This document shows, in pieces, positions 58,485 to 64,000 of a stretch of 64,000 nucleotides of DNA. Numbering within the stretch: position 1 is the stretch's first letter; each line of letters starts with the position of its first letter. A model generated the notes under the pieces. It saw only the letters and a program-made list of their open reading frames with translations, had not been told where the DNA came from and did not search any database. The position numbers were made by a program, and so were the translations under genes. This DNA is from Candidatus Altimarinota bacterium (GTDB lineage Bacteria > Patescibacteriota > Gracilibacteria > UM-FILTER-43-11): positions 186,001-250,000 of the forward strand of contig JANQKP010000001.1 in NCBI GenBank assembly GCA_028281045.1. The letters are read 5' to 3'.

Positions 58485-60212
58485 ATGTCCCAACCCAATA
58501 AAAATCCTTCTACAGCGAAGGAGTACTATCAAAATCAAGGATCAGACTACGTTCGCGTTAGCGATGTTTCTAATCGAGACGGTGAACAAGGTGCTTTTTG
58601 TAACATGGAGCCCGATGAAAAAATCAGGGTAGCCAAACTCTTAGATAAAGCACGGGTAGATATCCAGGAAGTAGGAACTTCTGCAGATACGATTGAAATC
58701 GATACAATTAGTCGTGCTAGTGAAGAAACCTCATGGTCGACCATGGCTGCCTTTGCGCGCAACGCTAATCTAGCCCTAAGTGAAGATAAAGCCTTCAGAG
58801 ATATTGAGGGGGCCATCAAGTCTGTTGAACCACTTATTGGAACGGGAAGAGCAAGAATTCACCTGCTTTCTAGAACCTCAGAAGGGCTAAGGGCCCCAAA
58901 AGGGATTTCCGAAAAACAGGCTTACGATAACACCATTGCTGGAGTTCGTTTTGCGGCTCAAGAAATGATCGATGCGGGACATGATCCAGATTTACAGGTT
59001 TACTACGAAGGAGGCGCAGAAACAGAGCCTGAATTTCTTCATGGCCTCATCTTTGATTCAACAAAGGCTTACGAAGAAATCCTTGAAAAGAATGGAAAGA
59101 AAGGAGAATACACTCACAATATTCCTTCAACACGTGGTAGACGCCACCACCGCGACTATTTCGAATGCATTAGAGGTGCCATAGACGCCACCGAAAGATC
59201 TTATCAAGATTATTACAACAGAGCCCTTGGAAAACACATTATATTCGCTGCCCATACTCACAATGACAGAGGTCTGGCAGTAGCTGCTGCTCTTGAAGGA
59301 ATCGATGCAGGCGCAAGACAAGTGGATGGATCTATTATGGGGATTGGAGAACGCCTAGGAAACGCTGATATCATTCAGGTCGTACTCAATCTATATTACG
59401 AAGAACGTGAAGAGTTCAAAAAGACCTTCGGATTCCTCATACAATATTCTTATCCTCTAGCGCTGGAAATCGCTACCATTTTAGGAATTGAAATTCCTAT
59501 TCGCCTCCCATTCTTAGGAGAGGTGGCTTGTGCCACAGAGGCTGGAATTCATGCTGAGATTTACCAAGCTTACCTTTGGGTAAACCAAGAAGAGCTGGGA
59601 TGTCCTGATTATGACAAGATCATTGTTGGAAAACGCATGGGGAAACATGGGATTGCCCAAAAACTACTTCAGGCAGGATTGATGTATGCCGGACCAGAAG
59701 TAACGGGAATATTCGCCCAAGACTTACGTGCGAATATCACTAGAAAAATGGGAGCTGATCAAATCATCAAAGATTTTATTATGCCTAGCCGTGAAGTCGC
59801 AGAAACCTTGGTTGAAAGCTACCCAGAAAGAGCAATACAACTTGCCTCATACGAAGGGGTTGAAAAATTACCAGAGGGAGGTGGAGACCCTATTACCCAT
59901 TACTCATTCGATTTGAAAATGGGAGATGAAAAAGCCTCTATTAAAAATGAAACTCACGATACCCTTATTGGAACCTTGGCTCATGCCATTAAAGATCTGA
60001 CAGGGTTAGAACTTGAAGTCGTAGATTACAGCGCAAAAAATGTAGAAGGAGAATCCTCAGGAAACGCCACAGTGGTTTCTATGATGCGCCTTAAATGTAA
60101 TGGCGAAGAGCGCATTGCCATTGGTGTGGCCCCAAATCAAAATCTGGCGAATATTTACGCTTTTAGAAATGCAGCCTGTCTTTTCTTAGAAGAAAACACA
60201 CATGCTAATTAG
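58485..60212 (+). CDS. 2-isopropylmalate/citramalate synthase family enzyme
   Basis: These enzymes condense acetyl-CoA with a 2-oxoacid. The 575 residues have a DRE-TIM barrel with SNRDGEQ (first-strand R-D-G-E-Q), HTHNDRGLAVAAALEGIDAGARQVDGSIMGIGERLGNAD (metal-binding H-x-H-N-D, then G-x-G-E-R-x-G-N), and EAGIHAE. A LeuA-type allosteric dimer domain closes it (about 490-570, DTLIGTLAHAIKDLTGLELEVVDYS). The family includes LeuA (leucine) and CimA (isoleucine). The Ile-rich leader peptide upstream favours CimA, but the sequence is divergent and I cannot decide. No other branched-chain pathway gene is in the window. Confidence 0.8.
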   Translation: MSQPNKNPSTAKEYYQNQGSDYVRVSDVSNRDGEQGAFCNMEPDEKIRVAKLLDKARVDIQEVGTSADTIEIDTISRASEETSWSTMAAFARNANLALSEDKAFRDIEGAIKSVEPLIGTGRARIHLLSRTSEGLRAPKGISEKQAYDNTIAGVRFAAQEMIDAGHDPDLQVYYEGGAETEPEFLHGLIFDSTKAYEEILEKNGKKGEYTHNIPSTRGRRHHRDYFECIRGAIDATERSYQDYYNRALGKHIIFAAHTHNDRGLAVAAALEGIDAGARQVDGSIMGIGERLGNADIIQVVLNLYYEEREEFKKTFGFLIQYSYPLALEIATILGIEIPIRLPFLGEVACATEAGIHAEIYQAYLWVNQEELGCPDYDKIIVGKRMGKHGIAQKLLQAGLMYAGPEVTGIFAQDLRANITRKMGADQIIKDFIMPSREVAETLVESYPERAIQLASYEGVEKLPEGGGDPITHYSFDLKMGDEKASIKNETHDTLIGTLAHAIKDLTGLELEVVDYSAKNVEGESSGNATVVSMMRLKCNGEERIAIGVAPNQNLANIYAFRNAACLFLEENTHAN

Positions 60213-61228: not shown

Positions 61229-61786
61229 ATGATTATTGGACTAACAGGATCTATGGGCGCCGGTAAAGGCGAAGCCACCAGAGTCTTAAAAGACCTTGGT
61301 TTTGATTACATCACCCTTTCACAAATGGTACGCGAAGAAGCACGCAAGCAAGGCGTACCTGAAGAGCGCGAGCAGCTTATGAAAATTGGAAACGGTATGC
61401 GCGCCGCCGAAGGCGCTGGTGTACTGGCTAAGCGTGCCCTAGAAAAAATCGCAGAAAGCGATAATAAAAACTGGGTGGTAGACGGCATACGAAACCCTGC
61501 GGAAATCGATGAACTTAAAAAAGGTGAAAAAGTGCACGTACTAGGACTACATGCCGATAAAGAAATTCTTATAGAAAGAATCTTAAAACGAAATAGAGAT
61601 AGTGACCCCAACGACAGAGAAGGCATCATCCACCGCATTGAACGTGAGTGGGGCAAGAACGAAGCCGAAGACGGACAACAAATGGAACGCTGTATGCAAA
61701 AGGTAGATCTTGTCATAGAAAACGAAGGCACACTAGAAGAACTAGACGAAAAAATAATTGCCTTCTATAATGAAGCCCTGAATTAA
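61229..61786 (+). CDS. P-loop NMP/dNMP kinase-like protein
   Basis: 185 residues. The P-loop GSMGAGKGE (7-15) and the layout (VVDGIRNPAEID, LKRNRDSDPND) resemble AAA_18/dephospho-CoA-kinase-like nucleoside monophosphate kinases. The GKGE ending of the P-loop (Gly for Thr/Ser) is unusual. It is followed 6 bp later by dCMP deaminase, so a deoxynucleotide role is likely by context. Confidence 0.7.
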   Translation: MIIGLTGSMGAGKGEATRVLKDLGFDYITLSQMVREEARKQGVPEEREQLMKIGNGMRAAEGAGVLAKRALEKIAESDNKNWVVDGIRNPAEIDELKKGEKVHVLGLHADKEILIERILKRNRDSDPNDREGIIHRIEREWGKNEAEDGQQMERCMQKVDLVIENEGTLEELDEKIIAFYNEALN

Positions 61787-61792
61787 ACTCTT

Positions 61793-62254
61793 ATGGCAGA
61801 ATTTAAAAGACCAACCAAAGACGAATACTTCATGAATATCGCTAAAGTGGTTTCATCGCGTGGTACGTGTGAGAAATTACAAGTGGGCGCTATTTTGGTT
61901 CGCGATGGATCTATTATCTCCACTGGATACAATGGTTCTCCTGTAGGAGAAGGTCACTGTTATGAAGTAGGTCACAACGAAGTGGCTGGTCACTGTCAAA
62001 GAGCTGTACATGCAGAACATAACGCCATACTGCAAGCAGCGAAGCATGGGAACAGCACCAAAGGGGCAACGCTTTATATCACTCACTTCCCTTGTAACCA
62101 TTGTCTTAAGGCCATCCGCAACGCAGGGATTGAAGAAATTGTTTACGATACTCCATACAAGTCTAAAGAAAACTTCATCTCACTAGACTTATTCCAAATG
62201 AGACAGGTTTCTATTAACTTGCCTCAAAACAGTAACATTAAAGTTAAAGATTAG
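61793..62254 (+). CDS. dCMP deaminase (ComEB-like)
   Basis: Deaminates dCMP to dUMP for dTMP synthesis. 153 residues. Zinc ligands are H73 in HAE (with catalytic E75) and C101/C104 in P-C-N-H-C. GYNGSPVGEGHCYEVGHNEVAGHCQRAVHAEHNAIL is the dCMP-deaminase insertion with extra Cys/His for a second zinc. The last 4 bp overlap the convergent unknown gene. Confidence 0.92.
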   Translation: MAEFKRPTKDEYFMNIAKVVSSRGTCEKLQVGAILVRDGSIISTGYNGSPVGEGHCYEVGHNEVAGHCQRAVHAEHNAILQAAKHGNSTKGATLYITHFPCNHCLKAIRNAGIEEIVYDTPYKSKENFISLDLFQMRQVSINLPQNSNIKVKD

Positions 62255-62506: not shown

Positions 62507-63376
62507 CTAGCCCATATGCTCTTCAAGCAGGCTGTAGTATAGCTTTTCAATTTCTTCACCATTGTTCATAACAGTATCGAAACCTGGACTGGCAATCTCA
62601 TATTTACCATCACCAAGATTGCGAATAGTAATTTTAATCTCGGTTCCATATGCTAGCGTAATCGCGTCTTCATCCTCATTGTATTCAACGCGCATCGCGT
62701 CTTCCCCATAGGCAGCATGAGCCACTATAACCTTTTTAACCAGAGGAATGCCTCCAATGATCTTTGGAGCTATAAATAAGGCCTGGTACATAGGGCAGCT
62801 TGAGTGTCCATTTGACCATTCATTGGTCACAACTTCCTCAAATATTTCGTGATAAGCCCATGTAAGCTTGTCGTTATCCATACTTCCGTTGACAGGAGGC
62901 TTATTATCCTTAAGCGCCCTTACATAGTAAGTAATTTCACCATCTTCGTGCATGTTCAGCTCTATTCCATATTCACCGTATTCAAGCCATATGACATTCT
63001 GGAAACGATTTTCAACATAAAAGTGAGGATAACCCTTTTCGCGAAAAGGGAATTTATCATGAAGGAGTTCGGCTCCTTCATCTAAGTCACTTTGAACAGC
63101 AGTTAAGGCCCTGTCTAAACTAGCAGTAATTTTCTTTTCGAAATTAGAAGGTCTAAGTTGAAGCCCAAGTTCTTCAAGCTCACCCCTCACATCAGACACT
63201 AGCGTTTCTGGGCGTGCCTTTGCCTTAATCAAACGCCTCTCTGAGTCACTAATAACGGTTTTAAACACTTCACTATCGTTCAACTTCAAACGCCGGATTT
63301 TCATCCTAGCTTGTTGGATATCAACGCCTTTCTTTGATGCTATTTCAACAGGCTCATAGCCTTCAAGCAGTGCCAT
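62507..63376 (-). CDS. Unknown 289-residue protein with helix-turn-helix-like N terminus
   Basis: The start LLEGYEPVEIASKKGVDIQQARMKIRRLKL looks like a short HTH (repeat-type E-I-A-x-K-x-G-V-D). The middle is helical, and residues about 110-280 form a mixed beta-rich domain (FYVENRFQNVIWLEYGEYGIELNMHEDGEITYYVRALK). No known family or membrane segment. It has a near-consensus promoter and the C-rich leader ATAACCCTCCT. Confidence 0.6.
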   Translation of the reverse strand: MALLEGYEPVEIASKKGVDIQQARMKIRRLKLNDSEVFKTVISDSERRLIKAKARPETLVSDVRGELEELGLQLRPSNFEKKITASLDRALTAVQSDLDEGAELLHDKFPFREKGYPHFYVENRFQNVIWLEYGEYGIELNMHEDGEITYYVRALKDNKPPVNGSMDNDKLTWAYHEIFEEVVTNEWSNGHSSCPMYQALFIAPKIIGGIPLVKKVIVAHAAYGEDAMRVEYNEDEDAITLAYGTEIKITIRNLGDGKYEIASPGFDTVMNNGEEIEKLYYSLLEEHMG

Positions 63377-63401: not shown

Positions 63402-63429
63402 ATAATATCATATTTATATAAAGTGTCAA
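63402..63429 (-). promoter_or_regulatory. Near-consensus promoter for the 289-residue gene
   Basis: -35 TTGACA (63424-63429), 16-bp spacer, -10 TATTAT (63402-63407), divergent from and nearly abutting the ileS promoter. Confidence 0.7.
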
Positions 63430-63434
63430 TTTTC

Positions 63435-63463
63435 TTGTTCTATAGCGAAACCTTGTGTAGAAT
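63435..63463 (+). promoter_or_regulatory. Promoter of the ileS T-box transcript
   Basis: -35 TTGTTC (63435-63440), 17-bp spacer, -10 TAGAAT (63458-63463). Confidence 0.65.
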
Positions 63464-63466
63464 GAA

Positions 63467-63611
63467 GTCACTGCATTTGAGCCTGCTATCAACAGGTGAC
63501 GCAGGAGGAAGAAAGGCTTAAGCTGATTAGACCCTCACCCCAAATCAAGTAAATGTCTAGGTGGTACCGTCTTATTTAAGACCCGAGACACTCAATTTAT
63601 TCCCTGAGTGT
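63467..63611 (+). promoter_or_regulatory. T-box riboswitch upstream of ileS, short form
   Basis: The conserved T-box core TGGTACC (63562-63568) lies as a bulge between two antiterminator helices: TCTAGG (63556-63561) with CCGAGA (63583-63588), and GTCTTA (63569-63574) with TAAGAC (63577-63582). A compact stem I is GTCACTG (63467-63473) with CAGGTGAC (63493-63500), and an ATC triplet (Ile codon, 63488-63490) lies in its loop as candidate specifier. Uncharged tRNA-Ile pairing with the bulge would favour the antiterminator. Only about 90 nt lie between the predicted start of transcription and the T-box. Confidence 0.88.
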
Positions 63612-63615
63612 TTTT
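63585..63615 (+). terminator. T-box-controlled terminator before ileS
   Basis: ACACTCA (63588-63594) pairs with TGAGTGT (63605-63611), extendable to 63585 with G-U pairs, followed by T5. The 5' arm overlaps the antiterminator strand 63583-63588, so the two structures exclude each other. Confidence 0.85.
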
Positions 63616-63621
63616 AATTTC

Positions 63622-64000
63622 ATGTTCAACGAAGTTGACCCAAAACAAAGTTTTCCTAAATTAGAAGAAGGACTTCTGAAATATTGGAAAGAGAATAAAA
63701 CTTTTGAAAAGTCTGTCGAAAATAGATCTGACGATTATATTTTTTACGATGGACCTCCATTTGCCACCGGACTCCCCCACTATGGCCACCTGCTTGCAGG
63801 AACCATTAAGGATGTAGTCCCTAGATACTGGACCATGCGTGGAAAACGCATTGAAAGGCGTTGGGGATGGGATTGTCATGGGCTTCCTGTAGAAAACGAA
63901 GTAGAAAAAGAGCTCGATCTAGGAAGCAAAGGAGATATTGAAGAATTTGGAGTGGATAAATTCAACGAAGCCTGTCGCAGCGTTGTTCTTCGCTACGCCG
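63622..64000 (+). CDS. ileS: Isoleucyl-tRNA synthetase, 3' end outside the window
   Basis: The frame is open from the ATG at 63622 to the window end (126 codons). [33 protein letters not shown] contains the class I HIGH-type motif HYGH (53-56), and [22 protein letters not shown] is the next conserved IleRS segment. The identity is confirmed by the T-box upstream. Confidence 0.95.

Follow-up and report, generated by a model that had tools for sequence, protein, structure and literature searches.

What kind of RNA stands in front of the isoleucyl-tRNA synthetase gene at the end of this window, by which we mean the whole 64,000-nt stretch of DNA analysed, and what might it do? The gene, ileS, begins with an ATG at 63622 on the forward strand and fills 63622-64000 before running past the window end; in the genome it is a 1212-aa open frame. 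The part inside the window matches NCBIfam TIGR00392 best, and the full frame scores above the cut-off of that family. The answer proposed here, to which we give a probability of about 85%, is that ileS is regulated by a minimal transcriptional T-box riboswitch of the ultrashort stem I type.

The leader is 121 nt long (63469-63589, +). The antiterminator, the TGGTACC bulge and the overlapping terminator that had been picked out in the sequence-only reading are all present, base for base. Read from 63467 to 63616 (+), the RNA is GUCACUGC AUUUGA GCCUG CUAUCAA CAGGU GAC GCAG ... GUCUAGG UGGUACC GUCUUAUUUAAGAC CCGAGAC ACUCA ... UGAGUGUUUUU. Its first element is a stem I of 34 nt (63471-63504, +), seen in the fold and in the covariation of both its helices among relatives. 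A basal helix CUGC/GCAG (63471-63474 with 63501-63504) is followed by a GA/GA pair of motifs (63479-63480 and 63498-63499) and by an upper helix GCCUG/CAGGU (63481-63485 with 63493-63497), which is closed by the 7-nt terminal loop CUAUCAA (63486-63492). The specifier codon AUC (63488-63490) sits in this terminal loop and not in an internal one. Stem II (63505-63536, +) comprises a helix GAGG/CCUC, an internal loop made of AAGAAA (63509-63514) and GAUUAGAC (63525-63532), and a small apical hairpin GGC-UUAA-GCU; it is found in the fold and in the family-model match described below, its helix covaries in relatives, and the pattern GAAGAA ... UAGA(A/C) is conserved among them. Judged by sequence motif only, the GA/GA element of stem I is K-turn-like and the internal loop of stem II is S-turn-like.

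What follows stem II is shorter than might be expected from the relatives. The linker ACCCC-AAAUCAAG-UAAAU (63537-63554, +) occupies the site of stem IIA/B, which is an F-box hairpin in relatives, and of stem III, and in the window it contains neither. Next comes an antiterminator of the AGGUGGUACC type (63555-63589, +), found by fold and family-model match and with helices that covary in relatives: helix A1, GUCUAGG/CCGAGAC (63555-63561 with 63583-63589), and helix A2 (63569-63582), with the T-box bulge UGGUACC (63562-63568) between them. The intrinsic terminator (63585-63615, +) pairs GAGACACUCA (63585-63594) with UGAGUGUUUU (63605-63614) around a 10-nt loop and carries a U-tract at 63611-63615. 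It shares five bases only, 63585-63589, with helix A1, and its outer pairs are A-U and G-U. A simple terminator scanner missed it because of the 10-nt loop.

When the whole leader is folded, the structure of lowest energy contains stem I, stem II, the A2 hairpin and the terminator. The isolated terminator has a folding energy of -10.4 kcal/mol (z = -5.1 relative to shuffles) and the isolated antiterminator region forms A1 and A2 at -6.5 kcal/mol, so that the terminator would be the default state when no tRNA is bound. The remaining parts of the leader have ordinary single-sequence stability, with z near 0; thus, the case for a T-box rests on comparison rather than on energy.

Where does this RNA begin? 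A putative promoter, with a -35 element TTGTTC (63435-63440, +), a 17-nt spacer and a -10 element TAGAAT (63458-63463), ends just ahead of the leader and would place the transcription start near 63470. In the window the match is weak (8/12, under the threshold of the promoter scanner); in relatives, promoter-like sites occupy the corresponding position and score above shuffles, and most of the high-scoring ones end 4-16 nt ahead of stem I. On the other strand, a divergent gene without an NCBIfam family match (62507-63376, -) starts at 63376. A standard long stem I, transcribed from a start well upstream, had been named as the finding that would speak against a short T-box; given the positions of these promoter-like sites, the window site ending at 63463 and the divergent gene from 63376, such a start is unlikely, and a long stem I upstream was rejected. 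The divergent gene appears to be served by a promoter-like site of its own, a strong one (TTGACA-16-TATTAT, 63402-63429, -).

The fit to T-box models, proposed as a check in the sequence-only reading, came out in two halves. Rfam RF00230, in both scan modes, gave no match to the window leader even at E <= 10; yet, in the 192 genomes of the class that were scanned this model never exceeds its cut-off, and among relatives it gives only weak matches, mostly to other, longer leaders. A covariance model of the family itself fits strongly. It was built from seven relatives, with the window copy left out and one insertion removed from one sequence (L008), on a plain MAFFT alignment to which the structure was assigned by eye. 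This model matches 63469-63589 with 79.6 bits and an E-value, rough as all those of the model are, of 9.1e-23, and this is its sole match in the 64 kb at E <= 10. It also matches 88 of 288 genomes of the class, with 1-3 matches per genome, and 74 of 380 genomes of the phylum (Patescibacteria); these leaders are related to one another, so the counts are not independent events. Among 80 ileS loci scanned, none from Spirochaetota, Lentisphaerae or further phyla matched at E <= 1, and the six that did match are Patescibacteria records, save one (L230) from an unnamed bacterium.

Comparative folding in related genomes supports the same structure: stem I, stem II, A1 and A2 covary, and the terminators of relatives overlap A1 as well. 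In the seven-sequence alignment 96% of the positions assigned as pairs are paired, and versions of the structure slid along the alignment all score far lower. Two-sided changes occur at 19 of 34 pairs in these seven sequences and at 31 of 34 in 70 leaders, the latter in an alignment fitted to the model and its structure; none of 500 shuffles was as high. Could the elements nonetheless be chance palindromes beside a plain terminator, with no T-box at all? The silence of the Rfam model and the ordinary single-sequence energies outside the terminator are what one would then see. However, the covariance match, the covariation and the joint change of codon, bulge base and gene have already refuted a chance fold, which now keeps next to no credibility.

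That joint change is the strongest evidence for a T-box, as only a T-box would be expected to link all three. Leaders of ileS, ilvA and thrC combine AUC with UGGU, and leaders of aspS combine AAC, rarely GAC, with UGGC. Outside the class, GUC is found in valS leaders, with UGGC in one GUC leader (L269), and a single serS leader has UCC with UGGC; valS and serS were named by eye from the sequence and not by a family search. With AUC the bulge base is U in 79 leaders, A in two and G in one, the two A counts coming from a regular expression that took an upstream TGGAATC in leaders that both read GGTGGTA; with AAC or GAC it is C in 27 leaders and U in one. For 20 AUC leaders the first gene was not recognized and the target was initially scored as 'other', and in 17 of them ileS lies further downstream on the same strand. 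The tRNA genes agree. In the genome of the window, tRNA-Ile has the anticodon GAU and the discriminator A (A73), and tRNA-Asn and tRNA-Asp have the discriminator G; thus, bulge base and discriminator are complementary, U with A for Ile and C with G for Asn and Asp. The specifier AUC at 63488-63490, which had been offered as uncertain, is firm through this comparison, since the codon covaries with the downstream gene.

Some of the targets are of interest in their own right. Several AUC leaders precede ilvA, encoding threonine dehydratase (L075, L088, L096, L113), and others a thrC-like gene for a threonine synthase-like protein (L034, L074, L143). The aspS leaders (L058, L072, L073, L076, L077, L079 and others) mostly carry the Asn codon AAC and rarely the Asp codon GAC, which suggests that the AspRS behind the AAC leaders is controlled by the charging of tRNA-Asn. 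A codon for Asn before aspS is explicable if AspRS also forms Asp-tRNA-Asn, which is then amidated to Asn-tRNA-Asn. All of the main specifiers, AUC, AAC, GAC, GUC and UCC, end in C. This agrees with a prediction of the S-turn model; a C-ending specifier is to be expected where G34 is preferred (PMC7583486).

Another question is at which level such a leader acts. The sequence-only reading had proposed a T-box before ileS in which an ultrashort stem I is coupled to a terminator, and the comparative evidence bears this out. Within 75 nt after the leader, a hairpin of -6 kcal/mol or lower followed by a U-tract is present in 108 of 152 leaders (71%), compared with 9, 16 and 12 when the sequences were dinucleotide-shuffled three times; at -5 kcal/mol or lower, 99 of 110 terminators begin inside A1, in its last 8 nt. 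The recognized gene mostly starts about 20-1280 nt after the end of the terminator. Excess, overlap and distance together fit termination and not the blocking of ribosome entry. No clear terminator is seen in about 40 of the 152 leaders, many of them outside the class, and these could act on translation. Might the window leader do so too? In a translational T-box of the actinobacterial sort, the hairpin before the ileS start codon would block ribosome entry, and a tRNA-stabilized antiterminator, there an antisequestrator, would free the site. The ultrashort stem I T-boxes described so far do act on translation (PMC7583486, PMC1262725), the window hairpin ends only ~8 nt before the ATG, and some leaders outside the class, as just seen, lack a clear terminator. 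Even so, we consider this mechanism improbable for the window: the ATG at 63622 has no Shine-Dalgarno sequence in front of it and the hairpin sequesters none, a U-tract follows the hairpin, strong hairpins with U-tracts prevail in the leaders at large and nearly always overlap A1, and hundreds of bases or even entire genes may separate them from the gene start.

A transcriptional T-box is thus preferred, and the main doubt is whether its minimal form in the window still works. Most relatives keep a IIA-like hairpin with an F-box-like CCGUCA or CCGUUA, and in the alignment its first pair is occupied in 66 of 70 rows; the hairpin is gone in the window copy and in two other leaders (L003 and L025). 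Stem III, for its part, is absent from the leaders generally: in 105 of 113, a conserved YRAG is separated by only 9-11 nt from the bases that directly precede the bulge. In the ileS T-box of N. farcinica, deletion of stem IIA/B causes a ~1,200-fold loss in tRNA binding, and the IIA/B pseudoknot is described as required for that binding and stem III as indispensable for the domain that senses aminoacylation (PMC7583486). Having neither stem, the window copy may be weak or degenerate. A decaying T-box that no longer senses tRNA, with a terminator setting a low, constant level of ileS, is unlikely, if slightly less so than control of translation. It would account for the loss of an F-box hairpin that roughly 66 of 70 aligned relatives keep, and one relative does look like a deletion remnant with stem I joined to the terminator. 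Against decay, the window copy has kept the specifier, its loop, the S-turn, UGGUACC, helices A1 and A2 and the terminator in an intact, paired form, and the two other leaders without the IIA hairpin are otherwise intact. The remnant itself (L004, in genome G015) lies just upstream of ileS; it is T-box-like with an internal deletion, so that the start of stem I (AAAGCGTCTGAGTCCCGCC) runs directly into CCCGAGGC and the terminator, and it would leave an unregulated terminator.

If the window leader is a working transcriptional T-box, its action can be sketched as follows. The RNA would begin near 63470. In the read-through state helix A1 would be held together, keeping 63585-63589 from the terminator, and transcription would proceed into ileS. 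With charged tRNA-Ile, the contact with the tRNA 3' end would fail, the terminator at 63585-63615 would form and transcription would stop. That the leader binds tRNA and senses its charging, that termination takes place in the cell, and that the RNA starts where proposed are all inferences.

How does this leader compare with known T-boxes? The closest likeness is to the short and ultrashort ileS T-boxes of Actinobacteria (N. farcinica, M. tuberculosis, M. smegmatis; 'class II' in TBDB), a likeness drawn from published descriptions, as the scan of 80 ileS loci included no actinobacterial leader. Both have ileS as target, both lack the elbow-binding distal part of stem I, and both have a K-turn at its base and a stem II S-turn containing AGA, the two turns being read here from motifs (PMC7583486). 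The specifier ending in C is also shared (PMC7583486), and the F-box CCGUCA reappears in relatives of the window leader (PMC7583486, PMC10651847). In contrast to the actinobacterial T-boxes, a terminator with a U-tract takes the place of the Shine-Dalgarno sequestrator, stem III is usually missing, with IIA/B missing too in the window copy, the leaders also precede valS, aspS, serS, ilvA and thrC, and the host belongs to the Patescibacteria. With the canonical transcriptional T-boxes (RF00230, 'class I', Firmicutes) the leader has in common the UGGNACC bulge, the competition of antiterminator and terminator, here a predicted one, and the logic of the specifier; unlike them, it lacks a long stem I, an internal specifier loop and the elbow contact (IDTM). 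The same class of Patescibacteria also contains T-boxes before argG (L333, L334) and thrS (L062, L065) with the same kind of bulge and with terminators. These differ in a clearly longer stem I, and RF00230 finds them weakly, with E-values from 2.6e-7 to 3e-18, below its cut-off. Leaders of glyS in the class (L066, L070, L148) show a different short form with UGGAACC, likewise below the Rfam cut-off.

What is new, then, is the combination of an ultrashort stem I, a terminator, a missing stem III and a host among the Patescibacteria; by the available sequence tests it is a kind of T-box. Short stem I has been assigned to translational T-boxes, the elbow-binding part being considered essential in transcriptional ones since binding must be fast (PMC7583486). 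TBDB used its short-stem-I model on Actinobacteria and on truncated class I hits (PMC7778990), so that Patescibacteria have perhaps never been scanned with such a model. No report of T-boxes in Patescibacteria (CPR) was found in the open literature, which is not proof that none exists. Our reading, somewhat favoured by the evidence, is that transcription-terminating T-boxes occur throughout this phylum and decode tRNA with no elbow contact or stem III, using only a hairpin loop of 7 nt, stem II and the 3' end of the tRNA. Of the 112 terminal loops called, 87 have 7 nt and 25 have 6 nt, and in 104 the base 3' of the codon is A. The window copy, also lacking IIA/B, would then be among the smallest natural T-boxes, at ~147 nt from start to terminator.

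If this is true, co-transcriptional sensing of tRNA would not require elbow binding. With so many short natural T-boxes coupled to terminators, the elbow-contact rule can be tested directly, and the argG and thrS T-boxes with long stem I are available for comparison in the same clade. T-box regulation would be extended to Patescibacteria (CPR) by a class that the Rfam model misses, and for uncultured bacteria, targets matched by codon (Ile, Val, Asn/Asp, Ser) would become available.

The surroundings of the locus add a few observations. The genome has 1.2 Mb, and its class includes genomes that read through TGA. At 61229-62254 in the window, two adjacent genes encode a small nucleotide-kinase-like protein and a ComEB-like dCMP deaminase; they match different halves of an anti-phage dCTP deaminase model, weakly and below its cut-off. 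Further upstream, at 58485-60212 (+), lies a gene for a 575-aa member of the isopropylmalate/homocitrate synthase superfamily, which falls under all curated cut-offs.
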